A stretch of 64,000 nt of DNA from Diphasiastrum complanatum (lineage: Eukaryota; Streptophyta; Lycopodiopsida; Lycopodiales; Lycopodiaceae): NCBI GenBank assembly GCA_029204225.1, contig CM055098.1, forward strand, positions 5,263,246 to 5,327,245, written 5' to 3'. Shown piece after piece: positions 11,220 through 41,463 of this stretch (the first letter of the stretch is position 1; every line of letters begins with the position of its first letter). Under the pieces are notes generated by a model. The model saw only the letters and a list, made by a program, of their open reading frames with translations. It was not told the DNA's origin and did no database searches. The position numbers and the translations under genes were made by a program.

Positions 11220-13036
11220 TTTTACAACTAGAAAGGTTTTCCCTCCAAGCTTTTAAGTTGATGTCCACCAATGCCTCCAAAGAGCCCTCCAAGGTTCTTT
11301 TCTTCCAATGTCCCTAAGATCCTTCCAAAGTAGACAATCAAATGGCCTCAAGAAATCACCACCACCAACCATAGCTAGATCCATGCATAAGCAAGCCAAT
11401 CTAGCACCCCCTTGCTACACCACTATCATTCACATAACCACCATCACAAGTACAAGCATACTCAAGATCCTACCCTGATCTAAGTCCCATACCAAAGATA
11501 GAGATCCTCACAAGAGTTATCTAGCAACAAAAATGCTCTCTACACCCTAGCCTCCACGCTAGTGCATAGAAGCAAGCACACCACAAGAATTCTCCCTTCA
11601 TATGGGTGCCCTCGTCGTCTCTTATAGATTGGAAATGACACCCTTCAAAGCACTAGAGAGTGTCCTCCCAAGCCAATGAGAAGAGGGGAGGCTAAGGAAA
11701 GGTCAAGAGCCTCATAAGCTAGTGGAAGGTCACGACACTCTTCCATAACTCATGTTTCTTGAATTATCATTTCTTGGGTGTTTTGGGGACATCAAGGGTC
11801 CATAGTAGGTGCACCCTCCTACTAGGTTCCAATGACCGCAAAATTTGGCCCAAGGCCAATTATGTGAACATGGCTTAAGGTTGAGGCCCAAGGTTTACAA
11901 AAATGACCAATACCCATGATAATGTCCTTCTAACATCTCACAAGGTTCCATACCTCCATCCAAGACATAGACATCTCCATGACCTTATCCAAGGACTCAA
12001 GTACCTTAATTCAAAGGCACCTAATCTTATGCAAGGGTGACATGCGATGATGGATTTGAAGTTGACTTTGGAGTGGATGCTTACTTGATTAAGATGGATG
12101 GTGAAGTGGTAGCAAGAGAAAGTAGATTTTGAAAGCTTCTTAAGCTGGTATATACTGAAGAAACTAACCTTTGTGGAAGAATGGTCAAGAAGAGCTTGGA
12201 TTATCTCAATAAAAATCCATGCTTTCCATGCTTAAGGAGGAGAAGGCAATTGGGTTGCCTCAATCTATGTTCCATGATGGTCACTTCGCCAATCAGATAA
12301 TGAGATTCAAGCTATGTGGTCCAATCATGGAGGGAGGTGCCAATCTTGAGGTCCAATCATTATGAGAGGGGAAATCCATGAGGTCCAATCAATTTAGAGG
12401 ATGTAATATGCTAGAACTCGGGCCTCTACCACATGGAAGTGTGCTCTCATTGTACATTCAGATTTTTTGAGAGATAATGCAATTTTGACTTGGAATCAAT
12501 TTGGTCTATTCTCTCTCTACCTAAGAGCAAGGTGCTTGGATTAAAGCCTCATAGTGAATTTTACTTATTTTTTTCATGTGGATGCAAGAAAACTACTTGT
12601 CTCTGGATGATTGTGTCTTTTGATGTGATTGAGCTCTTGCCTAGATTCAAAGTGTGGGAGATAGCTCTTCCAATCTTGAGTTGATTCATCCATCTTTGGT
12701 AGATGTGCAATCTCACATGCATGTAGGTCATGGTAGATCTTCATAAGGTCTTCAAATCTCCATTTTTGACATTTCAAAGTACATCTTCTAAGGAATTTTC
12801 ACAATGTCTCTCAATTCAAAACTTGAAATATTTTCAGCTGATAAAGTGGAGGACCCATCTTTTTCATCAAAGTCAACTGGCATAGCTTCTTTGAAATCAA
12901 TGTCCATTGTTGACAAGAAACCTTGTAAGTCAACTTTTCTCAATTGCGGATTTTATTCAGCCCATCGATCCAACCCTATGATTGGACTTAGATTTCATTC
13001 CAATTTCATTTTGGGTTGTTTTGAACCTTCAGTTGT

Positions 13037-13240
<204 letters not shown>

Positions 13241-13663
13241 TGTAGACTCTCATTTTTTCTGAGTAAATATGCAAACATGTAGAATCTAGTCTTGAAATTT
13301 TGTTGAATCCTCATATGGAATGAGAATAAAATCTAATACAAAACACTATAAATATCTATTTATTTTGCTCACATGATAGACATCTCCACGTTTTTGGATT
13401 TTAATAATAAGTTCTTTATATAATATATTGATATTTTGGGTAAAAATACATATATAATTTTTTTGTGAATTTAAAAAAAAAAAATTCAAAAAGCATGCTT
13501 TTGGCCACTAATTAGAAAACTACTAGATGGTTGTTATTTTAGAATTTTGACTAGTTTCAAAAGATTTCGTGTTAGAGGCTTTGAGTACCTCTACTTTTTA
13601 AAGTAAATTGAGTTATATTATCCTAAGCTGTCAAGTAAGAAATAGATAAATGCTTATGTACCA

Positions 13664-13667
<4 letters not shown>

Positions 13668-13722
<55 letters not shown>
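13668..13722. repeat. (TA)n microsatellite at helicase breakpoint
   Basis: A pure TA tract of about 55 bp. The codons immediately right of it continue the helicase reading frame whose other half stops at the TA tract near 15.81 kb on the opposite strand. Confidence 0.95.
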
Positions 13723-13724
<2 letters not shown>

Positions 13725-14590
13725 GCTGAAGTGTTCGTGTTTGCGGAAACACATGGAGGTGCATAAATTGACAAAGAACATGCGCGTCATGGGCATGGAG
13801 GGTGGCGATAAGGATGAGCAGTTGAGGTTTGTAAATTATTTGTTGAGTGTGGGAGATGGTCGTGAGCCCACATTCGTGCATCGTGATTTGGACCCGATTT
13901 CTCTGCTGGAGAGCATGTGCCTAAGGACGCGTGATGTAGGCGAACTGATTTCATTCACATTTCTTGATTTTGCGCGATGTTTTAAGGATGTTGAGTTTTT
14001 GAGGAGTCGTGCAATATTGACCCCATTGGACAAAGATGTGGATGAGATCAATGTGAGGGTTGTAGAGCAGCTTCCGGGTGACGTTTTCACCTTTTATAGT
14101 GCCGATAGTGTTCTTGAGTGTGAGGGCTCTAATGTCCACCCTATAGAGTATTTGAATAGCCTGCAACCAAGTGGGTGTCCTCCACATAAGTTAGTGCTGA
14201 AGATTGGGATGATTGTGATGTTGTTACGATCGATAGCATTGCACAAGGGATTGTGTAATGGCACAAGATTGATCATCCTCAGATTGGGTAGACAGGTCAT
14301 AGAGGCAGAGATAATGACCGGGAAGAATATAGGGAGTAGAGTCCTTATTCCACGTATCCCTATAGTGCCAAGCGATTCAAATATACCGTTTGAATTGCAG
14401 AGGGTCTAGTTTCCTATCAGAGCAGCATTTGCCATGACAATATACAAAGCACAGGGGCAAACTATGGACACGATTGGATTGTATTTGCCTTTGTTGTGTT
14501 TAGTCATGGGCAGCTGTATGTTGCACTTTCGAGAGTGCGAAATGCAGCAAGTCTTCGTGTGCTAATTATTGACAAGGACAATCGATTTAC
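13723..14590 (+). pseudogene. Helitron PIF1 helicase, C-terminal half
   Basis: The frame starts SLKCSCLRKHMEVHKLTKNM directly after the TA tract and includes ILTPLDKDVDEIN, LKIGMIVMLLRSI and GLCNGTRLIILRLG, the C-terminal half of Helitron PIF1-like SF1 helicases. A stop follows near 14407, then FPIRAAFAMTIYKAQGQTMD and, after a frameshift, GQLYVALSRVRNAASLRVL. These are the last helicase motifs (QGQT and the VALSR box). The pieces are collinear with the family, showing recent decay by point changes and small indels. It pairs with the minus-strand half at 15815-16494. Confidence 0.9.
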
Positions 14591-15724: not shown

Positions 15725-15763
15725 AATCATCGGCCGCCACCTAGATCGGCCGCCATTGCTCGC

Positions 15764-15766
<3 letters not shown>

Positions 15767-15814
<48 letters not shown>
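15767..15814. repeat. (TG)n(TA)n compound microsatellite at helicase breakpoint
   Basis: A TG tract followed by a short TA tract. The minus-strand helicase frame runs to ...IINA and then enters this repeat. The short spacer to its left (15723-15766) holds two direct copies of ATCGGCCGCCA. Confidence 0.95.
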
Positions 15815-16494
15815 GCATTGATAATCTGCGCCTGACTTCCATGTGGCACCGCTGGTAGAATCTGTTGAAAATCACCCCCGAAAACAACTGAAACTCCTCC
15901 AAATGGAGCGTCGATACTCAATATATCTCGTAGAGATCGATCTACGCACTCTATAGCATACTTATGCGCCATGGGAGCCTCATCCCAAATGATCGGTTGA
16001 CATGCCATCAAAAGCGTACCTAATGCAGATTGCTTAGAAATGTTGCATGTTGAGCTCTCATTCAAATCCGTCGGAGGAATTTTAAACCGAGAGTGTGCGG
16101 TCCTACCACCTTTCATCAACAATGCAACAATCCCACTCGATGCAACTGCCAATGCTATCCACCCTTGTGCACGCACGTACGACAACATGACACTATAAAG
16201 GTGCGTCTTGCCTATACCACCCGGACCATCTACAAAAAACACTCCACCCACTCTCCGAACAACATGCTCATGTACTACACGGTTGAAAATCTTTCACTGA
16301 TCCACGTTCAATCTCTCGATGTCAACTTCAACCTCTGAAGGGTTCTCGTCGACAAACATCTCCTCGCGAAACAATGTAGATGAACCAAAAATGGCATCGG
16401 GGACCCTAAACCCAAAATTCACCAATGACTTTCCAGCTGCCTGCATGTGCAACTCCACATCAAGAATAGCTCTGTCTACCAAAACCTGACTCAC
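15815..16494 (-). pseudogene. Helitron PIF1 helicase, N-terminal half
   Basis: Starting near 16494 the frame gives VLVDRAILDVELHM...AAGKSLVNFG and then ERLNVDQ, the lead-in to Helitron helicases. After one in-frame stop it continues RVGGVFFVDGPGGIGKTHLY (Walker A GGIGKT), ASSGIVALLM, WDEAPMAHK (Walker B) and FGGDFQQILPAVPHG. The frame ends ...QIINA at the TA/TG microsatellite, exactly where the plus-strand half at 13723 resumes. ATP-dependent 5'-3' helicase of rolling-circle transposition by family. Broken by a stop and by inversion. Confidence 0.92.
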
Positions 16495-18912: not shown

Positions 18913-19099
<187 letters not shown>

Positions 19100-19352
19100 G
19101 AAATGAATGAAGTAGATCTATCTATTTGCAATTCGATGACACTGTAATTAGTTAGCTCAGCCATTTTCACATTAAGAAATTCAGACGAAGGTGTCAATGG
19201 AGATAGGTTCACATTATTTTTTCTCCCTCTTGTGCATAGAGAAGAATTGTGCCTTTGTGAGCTGCTGAGAGCAGCAGCATCTGAGAATTCGTACATCGCA
19301 ATTTGCGATCCTCCTTCCAGCAGACGAAGAAGAAGGTAGCAGGAGGATCGTA

Positions 19353-20311: not shown

Positions 20312-20504
<193 letters not shown>

Positions 20505-28133: not shown

Positions 28134-30420
28134 TTAAGTCCTCAAAGCGCCGATGCAAAGTGCCATAAGTCTCAATAGCCAGGGGAAGGAAAGCATTAGT
28201 GGGGTGTCTGTCGGAGTCTTTTCCTTCTCTTGTGTTGCGACACATGCTGCTTCTCCTGGTGTGAAGGCAGAGCGAGGCAGTAGGTCACCATGAGTGGGAT
28301 CAGCAACAACAACATCTGCCAAAGTACGAAGCCCATCCCGAGAGAGGACAATGTCAACACATCTGCGAGAAGAGTGGGATGCGGTAGAAGGAAGAACATG
28401 AAACCGCTCTCTGAGGACGTGGAATCTTCCATCTCTGGCTATAGCGGCCGTTGCATCTCTGACAACATCATGCGTAGCTGTGCGCTCACTCCCAGAAGGA
28501 TAGGGGAGGAGGTGGATAGCAAGAGCATCAATAGGGTGACCACAAACACACTTGGAGAGACCCAAAACCGAAGGATGAGGTAGCTCCAAGCGAAGACGAA
28601 GAGTCGTATTGAAGATGGCTGAGGACAACCGAAAGGAAGGAATGACAGGCCGAGCTGACAAACAAGCCCCCGCACCTGGACCCGCACAAGAAAGAAGTTG
28701 AGCTTGATGGAATGCCGAAGGAGCCTCAAAGAGCATGCTTGGAAAGGGTTTGCTTGTGCACGCGCTCCAAGAGGGTCTCTTGCAGGTGAGCTGAGCTGAA
28801 AGTGAGGAGTTGCTCAAAAGGGAGAAGACAAGCTTGGGCAGAGAGGGGGAGTAGCTCTCGCGCAATGATGAGGAGGTGCTAGAAAGGCAGAGAAACGCAA
28901 TTCACATGAGCAATGCAATCCGCCAAGAGAGGACGACAGTTAGAAAGAACCGGGAAGACAAAGCATGGGCAACAAGAGCATAGGAAAAGCTACAGGTGCA
29001 GAAGAAGCCGTAGAGAGGAGACCCACACCTCCACAAGAAATGGGTAACCGAGCCAAAAACATCCATAATAGAGTTGTCAAAGGAAGAGAGAAGATGCAAA
29101 AAGTCCTGAGTAGGGGGAAAAGTGCACAACAAATAAGAAGGACACTGGATAAAGCAAGATGCCAAGATGCCAAACGTGACCTGAGTGTCGCCCAACCAGG
29201 GAAGCAGATCAGAATGAGCAACATCCTCCTGGAGAGCCTCACCAAGAAAAGTAGAGCTGAAGGAAGCAGAATCAAAAGGAACACCCAAAATGTGAATGCC
29301 ATCCGAAGGAACAAGGAAACCTGGAGGAGGACAAAGGCCAGGGGAAGACCTGCTGGAGACCACACTGAACACTTGTGAGGTCGAATAGACAAACCAAGAG
29401 AAGCCAGCTGCTCAGAGAAATGTTGAAATGCGAGGAGCACTTTAGGAGCAGGACCAACAATATGAGTGTCATCAGCAACCGAAGGAAATAAGCAGGAGGG
29501 AAAGGCCTCAGCTGAAGCTCGAAGTGCATGGAAATGAGCCAGAGCAAAAAGAGGACCACCCAAAGGATCACCCTAACGAGTACCTGCTGCAGACTGGATA
29601 GTAGAAAGATCCCCAGAGTGCACACGGTGACTGTAAAAGAGAGGAGTCTAAGTAGCATAGAACAATCGCACAAAAGGGATAAGCTGAGCCAACTCACCAC
29701 CAGCCGCCCGGAGCTCCCGAAAGATCGCAGCTCTAGAAACAGAGTTAAAGGCATTGGAAACATCCACTTGGAGAACAACCCAATCAGGATGAAGATCAAG
29801 GGTGGCACGCAAACCATGAATGACAGCTTCACAACTGCCAGGAGTAGAGACGCCAAACTGATGAGGGGAGAGAAAAGAGACGAAAATATGGTGAAACTGA
29901 CAACAGATAGAACGACTCACAAGATGGAGGAGGACTTCGCCAACAGCGATGGGACGGACGCCACCCGAGGCCTTAGTCATGGCAATCAAACGAGACACAG
30001 ACAAGAGACGAGCAACAGACGAAGGAATGTGACCAGAGGCTATAAAAGAGCAGACTTGAAAGAGTTGAACAAAGCCACTAGCAGAGTCCTCAGGTGGAAA
30101 ACAATCACGAAGGTGTTCATAGACCAAATTGCGAGTTGCGAGCAGCAAGTGCCTGACAATGGGCAAAGTGTTCATCATGAAGCGTTTCCCAGTCTCCTGA
30201 TAGAAAGCGACGAAGGTGAGCACGAGTTTTCCTGTGACCAGCATCCCCACCCCTCGGAGGGAGGACTAGACACCAAAGGGGGAAAAAGAAGAAACAAGTT
30301 CCAAGCCGCAATGTCAAAGGGGTCAATAGCCAAGCGATCAAGAGAAAGACGCAAAGCGAGTTGAGTTTCACAACTGAGAGCGAGGGGAATATGAAAGTAG
30401 AGCCTTGGACGAGGGAAGCC
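28134..30420 (-). pseudogene. RLE-type non-LTR retrotransposon RT and endonuclease
   Basis: Minus-strand pieces in order: RLSLDRLAIDPFDIAAWNLF and LRRFLSGDWETLHDE (N-terminal part). RT motifs follow: RLIAMTKASGGVRPIAVGEV, LSPHQFGVSTPGSCEAV, VLQVDVSNAFNSVSR, GDPLGGPLFALAHFHALRA (after a stop in R-Q-GDP), and the catalytic box VADDTHIVG. A thumb-like region follows, then a restriction-like endonuclease: SKCVCGHPIDALAIHLL, RRCVDIVL, LADVVVADPT and a frameshifted FLPLAIETYGTLH. The CCHC cluster with a following (R)xxVD box is the R2/NeSL-group signature. Stops and frameshifts throughout; inactive. Confidence 0.85.
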
Positions 30421-30931: not shown

Positions 30932-31669
30932 CTAATCTACAGGAAGGAGGACCTCATTGGTTCGAAGAAAAGGAACAGTCCATGGTGGATTATACTGGGC
31001 AAGTATATGCTCCCCTGTGATATTGTAGCCAGCTTCCTGCAGAGTCTTTCTCAGTTCTTGCACCTTCTTTTCAGTCAGGCTGTCATTAGCAATCCCACTG
31101 AAGGTAAGAACACCATACTTTCTTCTGGGTAGCTCCTTCACTGACACTCTCGGATCAGTTGGGCGAGGCACACTGTCTACAGTGTATTGAGAAGGCAAAA
31201 CAAACTGCATCGTCATCATCGTTTTATTCTCGTTTGCTGTTTTGCCATCACTTTCATGCATCAGCACTGGCGCAGTCATCTCAATTCTTTCGCCTTCTGT
31301 ATTAGCTTCACCTTGTGATGTCAGAACGGGAGCAGTCATGGCAATCTTTTGGCCATCTCTGTGTGCAGTGGCCATTCCTTCCTGCATAAGAACAGGCGCA
31401 GTCATGGCAATTTTCTCTCCTTTTGAATCCTCATCTGCGATATCCCCGTCCTTGGATTGCGCCTTCACATTGTTGGGTTTTCCAAGGGCTCCTATGTAGT
31501 TGGCAAGGATCATGAAGCCACCGCCTCTGCCATTCTTCATCTGAGATGGATCGTAAGTTACCTCCGCAATCAAGGCAGGAACATACTCTCTGATTTCATA
31601 ATCTTTGCCTTTAGCCAGCACTTCATACTTTGGGGTTTCAACATTGATCTTTCCAAGAATCAGGCCCAT
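30932..31669 (-). CDS. SOUL-family heme-binding protein
   Basis: A complete, intronless 245-residue protein. It starts MGLILGKINVETPKYEVL; the frame is open for 28 more codons upstream, but this ATG gives the family's usual N-terminus. Core SOUL features are YEIREYVPALIAEVTY, GGFMILANYIGALGKPN, and a C-terminal half with MMTMQFVLPSQY, PRPTDPRVSVKELPRRKYGV, LTFSGIA and LAQYNPPWTVPFLRTNEV. A KIAMTAPVL-type motif occurs three times (about residues 86-94, 108-116, 128-136). Closest plant type, from memory, is Arabidopsis SOUL-1 (At2g37970), presumed cytosolic. Family role: tetrapyrrole/heme binding. Intact amid transposons, so probably active. Confidence 0.93.
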   Translation of the reverse strand: MGLILGKINVETPKYEVLAKGKDYEIREYVPALIAEVTYDPSQMKNGRGGGFMILANYIGALGKPNNVKAQSKDGDIADEDSKGEKIAMTAPVLMQEGMATAHRDGQKIAMTAPVLTSQGEANTEGERIEMTAPVLMHESDGKTANENKTMMTMQFVLPSQYTVDSVPRPTDPRVSVKELPRRKYGVLTFSGIANDSLTEKKVQELRKTLQEAGYNITGEHILAQYNPPWTVPFLRTNEVLLPVD

Positions 31670-31679
31670 GCTTAAATCA

Positions 31680-31795
31680 CCGATCCTGCAGCAAAGAAAA
31701 GTAGAGATTCTGACACCAAAGAAGAGCAAATCAACGATCCCGCAGCAAAGCAAATTTTATAGTCTGACACCAAACAAAGAAGAGCGAGCGAAACA
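31680..31795 (-). promoter_or_regulatory. SOUL 5' leader with imperfect 50-bp tandem duplication
   Basis: Two adjacent copies of a segment containing CGATCC(T/C)GCAGCAAAG followed by TCTGACACCAAA. Just upstream of the start codon, so likely 5' UTR or core promoter. No clear TATA box was found. Confidence 0.55.
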
Positions 31796-33268: not shown

Positions 33269-33702
<434 letters not shown>

Positions 33703-33714
33703 TGGTATCAGAGC
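33703..33714 (+). other. Primer-binding site
   Basis: Perfect TGGTATCAGAGC directly after the LTR end CTTCACA. Confidence 0.92.
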
Positions 33715-34276
33715 TCTTGTGTTTCAGGCTATGAAAGGAACAACCACATTTATCAAAGATTTGGAGGAGATACCAATGCTAGAGCATGCTAGATTGATTT
33801 CTACTAAAAAATCGAGTTCTTTCCGTATGTAGATTGGATCTTTTGTAGGTCAAAACTCAAATTAGGTTTATAAACTTGAGGAATTCTGATTTCACACATG
33901 GCTTATTGGATTTGGATGATTTTTGATGCACTAAGAAGGTATCATTAGAGGCTACAAGATTCTAGATATCAAGTTTTAGGTAATTGCATATAGAAATTGG
34001 AAGATTCAATTTTTTGTGATTTTGTCAAAACCCTAATTTTGATTGGATTTTTATTTTTTGAAGTTGCTGGACTTTAATAGAGTGTGTTTCATTCTTAGAA
34101 AGTGGCAAGATTCATTATATTGTGTGTGGATCATAGGTTGATCAAGAATTCTTCATTCTATGTGTTGATTTGCTAGTAATAGTGCTAGAAGAGAATTGAG
34201 AGTTTTCATATCTTTGTGATTTCTTTTTTAATACATTTGTTGCCATTCAAAAGAGTTATTTGAGCATTGGAACAGT

Positions 34277-34903
34277 TTGAAAGGAGAAGATCAGGTCACT
34301 TCAACATGGCTACAAGTGGAGGCTTTAGGTTGCAATGATAGGCTTACCTCAATCAACTATTCTACTTGGAAGGTGAGGATGGAGTTCTTATTGGAGTTGA
34401 ATGAGTTGATGGAGATTGTTGCAGGTGTGGAAGAGAGGCCTCAAGCACCTCAAGATCAAGGGAGGTATGACAAGAGAGCAAAGAAAGCTCTACACCACAT
34501 GATCAAGATGAATGTTACCAACGAGCTACTCAAGGAGCATTGTAAGAGCAATTCATCTCGAGAGGCTTGGGAAGCTTTGAAGAAGCTTTATGAATCCAAG
34601 TCTACATTTAGAGTGTTGACTGTAAGAAGACAAATCTTTCAAAGTTTTCAAAAGAAGGAAAAGAGTGCTCATGCTTTTGTGTTGAGAGTAAAAGCATTTA
34701 ATGATGAGTTAGCATGCATTGATGAGAGCATTAAGGAAGGAGAACTTGTTCAAGTTAGTCTTAATGGTTTGTATGATCATTCTAACCTTGTTCAAAGCTT
34801 TGATATTCAAAAGACTTTGCCAAGCATTGCGGATTTGCAAGAGTTTTTGGTGAATGAGGAGTTTAGGCTTCAAACAAGAGGTAGATCTACATCAACAATA
34901 TGA
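34277..34903 (+). CDS. Copia gag polyprotein, N-terminal part (UBN2-type)
   Basis: 208 codons open. Diagnostic segments are LTSINYSTWKVRMEFLLE, KRAKKALHHMIKMNV, SREAWEALKKLYESKSTFR and SFQKKEKSAHAFVLRVKAF, the gag-polypeptide/UBN2 domain of copia elements (capsid-like, packages the RNA in cytoplasmic particles). The frame stops at 34901-34903; after a frameshift a basic linker and a CFYCGIKGHFANECLKKQ zinc knuckle follow near 35030, so the nucleocapsid part is out of frame. The first ATG is taken as start; an ATG near 34305 is not in this frame. Probably non-functional because the element lacks pol. Confidence 0.85.
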   Translation: MKGEDQVTSTWLQVEALGCNDRLTSINYSTWKVRMEFLLELNELMEIVAGVEERPQAPQDQGRYDKRAKKALHHMIKMNVTNELLKEHCKSNSSREAWEALKKLYESKSTFRVLTVRRQIFQSFQKKEKSAHAFVLRVKAFNDELACIDESIKEGELVQVSLNGLYDHSNLVQSFDIQKTLPSIADLQEFLVNEEFRLQTRGRSTSTI

Positions 34904-34904
34904 A

Positions 34905-36240
34905 GAGGAGGCTATGTCATCAAAGCCAAGTTCAAGGGCAAAGGTAAAATCAAACGGTCTAAAGGTCAAGATCAAGGTGAGCCTTCCTCTTTTGTTAGTA
35001 AGAATAAAGATAGATCAAAGTTAAAGTGCTTCTATTGTGGAATCAAAGGGCATTTTGCTAATGAATGTTTGAAGAAGCAAAGAGATGAAGGTAGCAAGCA
35101 AATCAACTTTGCTACTAATGATGAGGATCTAGGTGGTTGTCATTATCTTTTTATGTGTTCTTCAAGTCCAATATCAAGTGAAGGTGACAACGATTCATTG
35201 TGGATTGATAGTGGAGCGTTCACACATGACTAGTCACAAGGAGTTCTTTACTTATTTGGTCACTTATGATGGAGCCAAGAAATTGATTCACATGGCCAAT
35301 GGTGGTGAGTGTGTGATTGAAGGTATTGGTTCAGTTCTTATTTGTCTTTCTACTAATAGGAAAGCAAGACTTGATGGTGTTCTTTACATTCCTTCACTTT
35401 CAAAGAATTTGCTGAGTGTTGGTCAAATGATAGAGAAAGGATACATGGTAAAGTTTGGTGGTGATGCTTGTTTCATTACAAAGGCAAAAATCTTGGTTGC
35501 TAGGGGAAATAGACAAGGTAGACTTTTCAAGCTTGATGCTTTTTTTATGGCTAACAAAAAGGATGGAATGGAAAAGGAGATTGATCTAAGCTTTTCAAAG
35601 TTCCATTTTAGCATCAATAAGATTGGTGGATCTTATGCAAAGTCTAACAAGCTTTCTTATCCTAGATCTTTTGTTCAAGTTTACTTTACTTCTTTTATCT
35701 CATGTTTGAACTATTTCATGTGGATGTGTGCAAATTGTCAAGATATGGTAAAACTAGCTACATTGGTTTGCATCATTTTGATGTTGGAGTTGTACTAGCA
35801 TTCTTGGCTGGTTTTGTTGACGGAAATGAATCTTTTGGAGGTTCATTATGTCACTCATTCATAGACAACTCATCAAGTGTTAATGATATCTTGTGGCAAG
35901 ATGGCAATGGAGGCTCATTCATGGAGTTTTATGTTGGAGACATATCAAGAAAGGAAAAAGTTGGAGGAGACAAGCAAGCAAATGGTCAACTTTCCAGAGA
36001 GTTCAAAGTTTGAAACATGGAGAATTATTTCATTTACATTCTATTTGGTTCTTCATGTTCTAGTCACATCTTGACATGTAAAATTGATGTAAGAGATAGT
36101 GAAACATCCAATTTTGACACTATTCTCTATATCAATTATGGAAACTACTCTAGAACCTTAGAAAGGAGGTCTATACTTAGGATGGAGATCATTCTAAAGT
36201 TGGATCAAAGTAGTATGGTTAAAACTATGCCAAAACTAGT
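34905..36240 (+). pseudogene. Copia zinc knuckle, protease and pre-integrase remnant
   Basis: After gag: zinc knuckle CFYCGIKGHFANEC (C-x2-C-x4-H-x4-C), then SLWIDSGAFTHD, a protease active-site box (D-S-G-A). KARLDGVLYIPSLSKNLLSV and EKGYMVKFGGDACFI, the region between protease and integrase, follow. ELFHVDVCKLSRYGKTSYIG near 35.7 kb may be the start of integrase; DDE, RT and RNase H are deleted. The remaining open frames up to 36240 have no pol motif. Confidence 0.78.
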
Positions 36241-36243
36241 TGA

Positions 36244-36251
36244 AGAGGGAG
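36244..36251 (+). other. Polypurine tract
   Basis: AGAGGGAG immediately before the TGTGAGAAAT start of the 3' LTR. Confidence 0.8.
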
Positions 36252-36994
<743 letters not shown>

Positions 36995-37224: not shown

Positions 37225-37377
<153 letters not shown>

Positions 37378-38785: not shown

Positions 38786-39272
38786 ACATGTTTTACTAGA
38801 AATTTGACTAAAAAATTTGCAAAGGTTGCTTTGGTAAGGTTTTACAATGGAAAGATTCTTTCCTTCAAAATGGGGTCTTTGGGAACTCTGTTATTTTGTT
38901 AGTTGATTGAAAGCTAACATTTACCATCTTGACAGGGACTAGACCTGAATCAGAGGAATATTTGAAAATATCAACAAACATTCTTGCTTGTCAAATGGGA
39001 TCTTATTGAGATTTTTGAAGGTTACTTGAGAAGAAAAAGAACTTGGAACTTATTGGGAACATTCGCAACATAATCGATTCATAAAAAGAATGTTCACAAT
39101 ATAGTAAACTAACTAAAAATAGTCAGATTTGTCTGGAAGAATGTTTTACAAATGTTTTTTAGATAGAAAAAATTGGTTCTTTACAAAATTTCTCTTTTTT
39201 TTTTTTTTGTGAAAGATTAGACAGAAAATTGAAGAACGCTCACAAGACTTTCAGGCGCAAAATTAATGTTTG

Positions 39273-39756
39273 TGTTGTGGGTATTTCCTGCATAATAATG
39301 AGCAAGTGGGTCCCACCACTTGAAATACTGTTCGCCAAGCCTTACCTAGTGGGCCTCGCCACAGTACATTGTAAGTAGGGTAATAAGTGCGAGGGCACTG
39401 GCGTCCTGCATGTGTAAGCCCAACCCAATGAGCACACTGGTTAAATAGTTTAAGTTGTGTTCTAGTGACTTGGGCCCTAGTTATAAATAAATAAGTTTGA
39501 GGACCAGCTCACAAAGTCAAGCTGAAAAATAAGGAATCTAAGTTGCACAAAGTATAACTCACATGAATCATGTGAGTGCCCTTGTGCTTTCTTAGAACCA
39601 ATAGATTTAAGTTGTGTTTATTTGAAGGGCTTGGATTAGAATCCTTGTCCCAATGAAGTGGCCAATGAGAGTGAAAGAGGCTCACCTCTAAAATCTATAA
39701 GAGGAAGTCATTTCTTTTGTATTGTATCATCTTTCATTCTCTTCTTAATAAAACTC

Positions 39757-39849
<93 letters not shown>

Positions 39850-40488
39850 TGGGATAGAATAGCTTTGGGTAGGCGCTCGAGCCCCCAAGGCCTTTCTCAA
39901 CCTAGGCATTCCCTCTCTCTCTTCTCTCCTCTCTCTAAGTAGCGACCGAATAGTTTGAGGAAGGTGGTCGGGCCTCCCAGACCTCTCGCTACTTGGTGGT
40001 CGTCAATAAGAGGGAGCGGCAACCTCGCCTTCATTGAGGAAGGTGGTCAGGCTCCCTCTTATAGATTTTAGAGGTGAGCCTCCTTCACTCTCATTGGCCA
40101 CTTCATTGGAGCAAGGATTCTAATCCAAGCCCTTCAAATAAACACAACTTAAATCTATTGGTTCTAAGAAAGCACAAGGGCACTCACATAATTCATGTGA
40201 GATCTACTTTGGCCACCTTAGATTCCTTATTTTTCAACTTGACTTTGTAAACTTGGGCCTCAAACTTATTTATTTACAACTAGGGCCCCAAGTTACTATA
40301 ACACAACTTAAACTATTTAACTAGTGTGCTCAGTGGGTTGGGCTTACACACGTAGGACACCAGTGCCCTCGCACTTATTACCCTACTTACAATGTGCTGT
40401 GGCGGGGCCCACTAGGTAAGGCTTGGTCAACAGTATTTCAAGTGGTGGGACCCACTTGTTCATTATTGTGCAGGAAATACCCACAACA
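39273..40488. mobile_element. Palindromic LTR-like element with 5-bp target duplication
   Basis: Two arms of about 436 bp (39273-39710 and 40053-40488) are inverted copies. Outer ends are TGTTGTGGGTATTTCCTGC and its complement GCAGGAAATACCCACAACA, i.e. TG...CA termini, and the element is bracketed by GTTTG on both sides (39268-39272, 40489-40493). The left arm looks like an LTR U3: TATA-like CTATAAGAGG at 39695, AATAAAA near 39750 and a (TC)n tract at 39765-39846. The ~340-bp centre holds the (TC)n and a GC-rich segment with duplicated GAGGAAGGTGGTC. No ORF. Confidence 0.8.
39765..39846. repeat. (TC)n microsatellite
   Basis: Pure TC tract of about 82 bp in the central spacer of the palindromic element. 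Confidence 0.95.
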
Positions 40489-41463
40489 GTTTGTTGAGTC
40501 ATTTGTAAGCTATGCACAATGAAGGCAAAGATTTAGCAGGACTAGTGAATATTCTTGAAACTGTAATTGGGAATACAAGGGTTTAGAAGTAGTTGGCTTG
40601 TTACAAGCTTGGGAAGCTTCGGAGGTACTCAAAATTACTGAAGTAACATTTGTTGAGTCATTTGTAAAGTACGCACTATGAATGGAAAGCTCTAGGACTG
40701 GCAAATGTTCTCATCAGTGTTCCAAATTTATGTTTTTTTACAAGTGCTTATGGATTTATATGGAGATTTTTTGAATTGCAAATTGTTAGTTGTGAAGTGA
40801 TGTTTCCACCTGATACAAAAAGTACTAAATGCTATTCTGAACTTGTCTATAGTTGGAAAAATGATAGTTTTAGAGGAATGAAAAGTTATGAGCTCTAGAG
40901 ACATTCTTTTAGAGTTTTTCCTCCATTTTTGTAAAAAAAAATTATATTTGGATTTTTTTCAAGGTTTATCTAAAATTTGCAGGTTGCTAGGATAATCCTA
41001 GGCTTTTTCCACTTCAGAACATCCTCCCATCATCAAGCAACAATCAGAACAAGCATAAACAACAACAAAAAGTGTTGTACTATCCACAATCTCTATTTTA
41101 ACACTACTTTTGAACAAGAAAGAAAGCTGAAAACAAAAAAGAAATGTTGCCTATCTTTGGCAATGATGCCAAAAATTGTAAGAGTTTTTGCCCAAGCAAA
41201 ATGCTATCTGAAGGACATTCATATTCCGTTTGCTGCATTTCATTGAACAAAATTATGTTTTTAACCATAAGCATGGCTCCAATAAAGATGCATGTCTACC
41301 GGTTTCTTGTGTTTAAACAGACATGATATTATTAACATATATTAGTTCAAGGCATCCAAATCTTCTTTCACAATCAATATGGTGGTTTGTTTTAATTTCC
41401 AGGTCTTGTATTGAGGTCTAACGGACAAGCTGTAAATGTTGACGTGAGTTTATTTTTGCAAAG

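Follow-up and report, generated by a model that had tools for sequence, protein, structure and literature searches.

We report an insertion with long inverted arms in a 64,000-nucleotide stretch of the clubmoss Diphasiastrum complanatum (contig CM055098.1, positions 5,263,246 to 5,327,245 of the forward strand), which we call the window and whose numbering we use throughout. The element is 1,216 bp long (39273..40488, without assigned strand), starts with TGTTGTGGG and ends with CCCACAACA, and has outer ends TG...CA (in longer reads, TGTTGTGGGTATTTCC on the left and GGAAATACCCACAACA on the right). It is directly abutted by two copies of GTTTG, a 5-bp target-site duplication (TSD) at 39268..39272 and 40489..40493, likewise unstranded. 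The element was most likely inserted as a single unit, because the homology between its arms ends exactly at the outer TG/CA and the duplication lies directly outside; the inserting enzyme, as the data support, was one that yields TG/CA ends and a 5-bp duplication. As to origin, we favour, tentatively and somewhat short of calling it probable, aberrant DNA of a long terminal repeat (LTR) retrotransposon, with two ends of the U3 (unique 3') type, joined to the chromosome by a retroviral-type integrase. Such DNA and a transposon of the Ginger type are two close explanations. The likelihoods that we attach to these and to the other readings are judgements, and were not computed.

The boundaries of the element are well defined. 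Among the duplication lengths 2-12 tried at 39273-40488, five is the only one with identical flanks, and when a 1,216-bp stretch is placed anywhere in the window, the 5-mers on its two sides coincide at 111 of 62,774 positions (0.18%). Outside the element, the flanks agree at 5 of 20 bases, which is the chance level. A scan of the window for 16-nt inverted ends, allowing up to 3 mismatches, a distance of 150-3000 bp and flanking duplications 3-6 or 8-10 bp long, gave 22 rows, and no row but that of the element has a duplication of 5 bp. Of the other 21, five are inner registers of the element's own arms, 11 consist of simple sequence of the AT type, and the last five are other pairs, whose duplications measure 3 or 4 bp. 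An earlier note on this DNA, made from the letters alone, had described a 1.2-kb element with TG...CA ends and a GTTTG duplication, and had given it inverted arms of about 436 bp; both descriptions are borne out.

The left arm (39273..39707, plus strand) is U3-like and 435 bp long, and the right arm (40052..40488, minus strand) is its inverted copy, of 437 bp. Aligned with each other over 437 columns, the arms are 93.1% identical and differ at 30 positions, by 19 transitions, 9 transversions and 2 single-base gaps, while their outermost 20 nt are identical. The two ungapped pieces of the arms measure 205 and 202 nt and come first by length among the best 25 of 97 inverted pairs at spacings of up to 4 kb. 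The differences are not significantly clustered, as recombinant arms might have led one to look for: of 5000 trials, 330 reached the largest gap and 1000 the densest 15 columns, the positions used being hand-entered and perhaps 1-2 off after gaps. It is possible that deamination lies behind some of the differences, but the counts are not telling. Three transitions fall at CG and four at CHG, of 19, in arms that contain only 4 and 3 CG, and we reject deamination as the main source.

A unit of this kind could in principle be mimicked by two insertions made independently, or by an inversion or an artefact of assembly, and the repeats at 40490-40536 and 40649-40695 in the immediate neighbourhood would suit such an origin. 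The exact end of the homology at TG/CA on both sides, the abutting 5-bp duplication and the 30 differences between the arms stand against it, and we consider it very improbable. The assembly duplication of the right arm that the earlier note had raised against its own reading is disfavoured in particular, because the arms differ at about 7% of their positions. The neighbouring repeat is itself worth describing: it is an 83% direct repeat that adjoins the insertion and begins inside the target duplication, with no empty-site paralogue shown. When the flanks, joined without the element and one duplication, were aligned to the copy at 40649, the alignment was trivial, its target overlapping the query's own right flank; the left flank by itself scored 22, which is not meaningful.

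The left half of the element is laid out in the order of U3 followed by R: TG, CCAAT boxes, a TATA motif, AATAAA 51 bp further on, and a pyrimidine array. By motif match alone, three CCAAT boxes lie in the left arm on the plus strand (39598, 39650 and 39662; 39598..39666) and are mirrored on the minus strand of the right arm (40161, 40109 and 40097), while a fourth at 39425 is without a right-arm counterpart. These boxes alone prove little, because at least three occur in 143 of the 2544 window stretches of 435 nt. The left arm has a TATAAG motif close to its inner end (39696..39701, plus), as does the right arm (40058..40063, minus), and at the window's rate 0.08 would be expected per arm and strand. 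We take the CCAAT and TATA motifs as hints, not proof, of promoter elements. They sit toward the inner ends of the arms and face inward, as in the U3 of an LTR, so that any start sites would fall in the centre. The earlier note had proposed two outward-starting, convergent promoters; the putative promoters are convergent, but they do not start outward. The inner ends also carry purine tracts, AAGAGGAAG on the left (39699..39707, plus) and AAGAGGGAG on the right (40060-40052, minus), which by their position are not LTR polypurine tracts, because no TG follows.

The centre between the arms (39708..40051, plus; 344 bp) is not palindromic. It contains the AATAAA (39747..39752, plus), a possible poly(A) signal that could be a chance match, as the element has three AATAAA on the plus strand and two on the minus strand, and a (TC)41 array (39765..39846, plus). 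The 205 nt past this array fold somewhat better than shuffled sequence (z -2.4; 4 of 200 shuffles as good). The first copy of a 19-bp direct repeat (plus strand) is at 39955..39973; the second (40034-40052) reaches the right arm's inner edge, as does the partner (40051-40065) of a 15-nt inverted repeat (40003..40017, plus). Because the duplication is limited to the U3-like part and the centre is non-palindromic, the complete head-to-head LTR dimer envisaged in the earlier note is not supported.

An origin from an LTR retrotransposon accounts directly for the ends and the 5-bp duplication, whereas the inverted arms would need aberrant DNA. In plant LTR elements the usual target duplication is 5 bp. 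For LTR elements at large, the passages of PMC10045372 drawn on here give 3-6 bp. The element resembles the solo LTRs of plant Copia and Gypsy elements in its TG/CA ends, 5-bp TSD and U3-like promoter order, but differs from them in that its arms are inverted and no matching complete LTR is known. Further in favour of LTR origin, the TATA-then-TC layout of its left half is resembled by the 3' LTR of a copia element in the same window.

That copia element (33271-36994) is degenerate, with remains of gag (Retrotran_gag_2) and Pol_BBD, a primer-binding site (PBS) TGGTATCAGAGC at 33703, and a purine tract at about 36240-36251 before the 3' LTR. The 3' LTR looks intact (about 36252-36994), with a U3, a TATA at 36529 and then (TC)51 from 36566. 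In the 5' LTR the match opens directly with a (CT)n array and lacks a preceding U3; the 3' LTR has a like array. The LTR pair is 93.8% identical over 434 aligned bp. Since this is close to the 93.1% of the arms, a similar age of the two elements would fit, provided that the arms were alike at insertion.

How might such a product have arisen? During reverse transcription, the growing LTR strand may have switched template at a short inverted repeat, for which the 15-nt repeat at 40003-40017 and 40051-40065 is a candidate, onto a U3 copy of opposite sense. The result would be a linear DNA of the form U3-R-(TC)n-X-U3(inverted). Either side of it would offer a TG end ready for integrase, and an integrase of the copia or gypsy type, provided in trans, could join this DNA to the chromosome. 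Because a PBS and a second direct LTR are lacking, no further reverse transcription would follow, and one or very few copies are predicted. The insertion might then present two convergent promoters, and a read-through transcript would be expected to fold into an RNA hairpin of about 435 bp, a possible source of small RNA against the parent family. Folded as RNA, the whole unit is predicted to form one arm-length hairpin at -832 kcal/mol, a value without a shuffle control at that length.

Several observations weigh against this origin. The 64-kb window yielded no parent, in the sense of a full-length LTR element that bears these arms, and neither strand of the element has a prefix match to the PBS of five tRNAs. 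Purine tracts of at least 9 nt occur, but none before a second direct LTR. The arms are inverted and are not direct terminal repeats as in a full LTR element; the U3-like part alone is doubled, and no U5...CA end is recognised. The CCAAT, TATA and AATAAA matches can be due to chance, and an alternative of the Ginger type is ready at hand without any aberrant event. Of the LTR-like integration put forward in the earlier note, then, the insertion of one unit with TG/CA ends and a 5-bp duplication stands, while the LTR origin is plausible but unproven.

The earlier note left out Ginger-type DNA transposons. According to this explanation, the element is a non-autonomous DNA transposon of the Ginger/GingerRoot kind, its arms are terminal inverted repeats (TIRs), the inward promoters in them are leftovers from an autonomous element, and an integrase-like transposase is made elsewhere in the genome. 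We rate this as possible, though on the unlikely side. It explains both the inverted arms and TG..CA without an accident, and the published descriptions, as far as the excerpts we cite extend, offer several likenesses. According to PMC10741241, the Ginger elements of plants end in TG..CA, make TSDs of 4-6 bp and carry relatively long TIRs; the element shares such ends and inverted repeats, and the length of its TSD falls within that range. Termini of the form TGTNR are described, which its TGTTG fits, and TDD-4/5 have 5-bp TSDs (both PMC2836005). GingerRoot is known in a clubmoss, Selaginella lepidophylla (PMC10045372), and the window too comes from a land plant. Moreover, each arm holds two copies of the 13-nt motif TTTAAGTTGTGTT, a pattern that transposase-binding repeats may show; when the left arm was shuffled 1000 times, a repeat that long arose in 2 cases. 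In other respects the element fits poorly. Its arms of 435 bp are longer than the TIRs of 40-270 bp in the cited part of PMC10741241. Its TSD, though inside the plant range, is off the typical values, which in the passages cited are 4 bp for Ginger1, as for Ginger2 families other than TDD-4/5 (PMC2836005), and 6 bp for GingerRoot, whose ends are mostly TA..TA (PMC10045372). Finally, no transposase domain was found in the ten open frames that we scanned (see below), and there is no second copy of the element within the 64 kb, where its other matches are only of 26 nt (11876-11901) and of 21 nt within an arm.

Returning to LTR-based explanations, the element could be a solo LTR from a family whose 1.2-kb LTR holds an inverted copy of its own U3, formed by ordinary retrotransposition and recombination between LTRs. 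The TG/CA ends, the 5-bp TSD and the U3-like left half agree with this, but the window contains no pair of LTRs of the whole-unit (1.2-kb) kind and no member of such a family, and the strong internal hairpin, in which whole arms pair, would be expected to hinder reverse transcription. We consider such a solo LTR improbable. It seems to us similarly doubtful that the element belongs to a foldback family with two U3-type ends that retrotransposon integrase inserts as DNA in trans, in effect LTR-derived miniature inverted-repeat transposable elements. Such a family, having no signals of its own for reverse transcription, would parasitise an LTR element for integration only.

A further explanation, to which we give little credence, is that the element is a non-autonomous member of the Mutator-like group whose duplication is unusually short for that group. 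Mutator-like elements share long TIRs with the element, whose arm length fits, and inward promoters in the TIRs are known from MuDR. To our knowledge, however, TG..CA ends are not typical of Mutator-like elements. In the passages cited, MuDR and its prokaryotic kin IS256 are jointly assigned TSDs of 4-10 bp (PMC10045372), which would accommodate the element, whereas the TSDs of plant Mutator-like elements are 7-12 bp (PMC10741241); at our element, lengths 6-12 mismatch and only 5 fits.

The nearest printed systems that we found are an inverted array in maize and the DIRS-1 element of Dictyostelium. DIRS elements are not known to make a target duplication. Like the element, DIRS-1 has inverted terminal repeats with promoters, which in the account available yield sense and antisense RNA; unlike the element, it encodes a tyrosine recombinase and a reverse transcriptase, domains absent from our ten scanned frames, and the element has its 5-bp duplication. 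The maize case is a tandem array of terminal-repeat retrotransposons in miniature (TRIMs), Zma-SMART, in which two inverted TRIMs share the TSD CTTCA (PMC4717578, Fig. 2C); arrays of this sort were checked by polymerase chain reaction and sequencing, according to the same excerpt. We regard this array as a printed precedent for the element. Both are short and consist of inverted LTR-type units within one flanking 5-bp duplication, but where the array, as described there, joins two TRIMs, the element doubles the U3-like arm only, with no direct LTR pair and no recognised internal domain. The definition of TRIMs given in that excerpt calls for at least two copies with different TSDs, a length below 1,500 bp and no retrotransposon protein (PMC4717578); the element agrees in size and has no protein domain in the ten frames, but its terminal repeats are inverted, not direct.

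The significance of the element depends on which explanation applies. If it is LTR-derived and multi-copy, it would show that the integrase of a retrotransposon is able to move DNA bearing a U3 at both ends, the boundary between class I and class II elements would blur, and the element would be a natural source of hairpin RNA. A Ginger-like identity would extend what is described for the integrase-type DNA transposons of plants to a very long TIR and a duplication of 5 bp. If only one copy exists, the element is a curiosity for which a precedent is in print.

The searches for coding potential and for relatives gave the following. Open frames of at least 30 codons overlapping the element number 28, and ten of these were compared with Pfam. 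Nine matched no family, the tenth had an Atrophin-1 match below the cut-off that covers the TC array, and none of the ten contained a transposase, integrase-like, tyrosine recombinase, reverse transcriptase or retrotransposon domain. The left arm has an open frame of 81 codons, and a protein search with it returned no candidate; one with the gag of the copia element returned four unnamed proteins. Rfam gave no match in the window at gathering scores, and none in 39200-40560 at E 1. Among non-plant collections, an exact 20-mer and 21-mer of the element had 0 matches in public genome contigs and viral contigs, and a public plasmid collection had no match at E 1e-5. A 16-mer from the element end does occur in 11 viral contigs, but all 11 match the element over 16-17 nt only, and we dismiss these matches as chance.

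Elsewhere in the window, GA/CT arrays are many, long and mostly perfect, ranging from 40 to 185 nt (for example 18918-19101, 20317-20501 and 37227-37374), and some of them occupy LTR leader positions. Fragments of a PIF1-like helicase at 13639-14406 (plus) and 15730-16293 (minus), with AT, TC and GT arrays nearby, are possibly the remains of a Helitron. An RVT_1-like reverse transcriptase fragment (29651-30265, minus) falls just under the Pfam cut-off. Finally, a gene for a SOUL heme-binding protein is open in one frame at 30935-31756 (minus), with homologues in liverworts, ferns and seed plants. In a search that scored only the 7,997 candidates with the most shared words, the nine rows that follow the gene's match to itself are 54-62% identical and include Riccia, with Adiantum at 60%, followed by gymnosperms and flowering plants.
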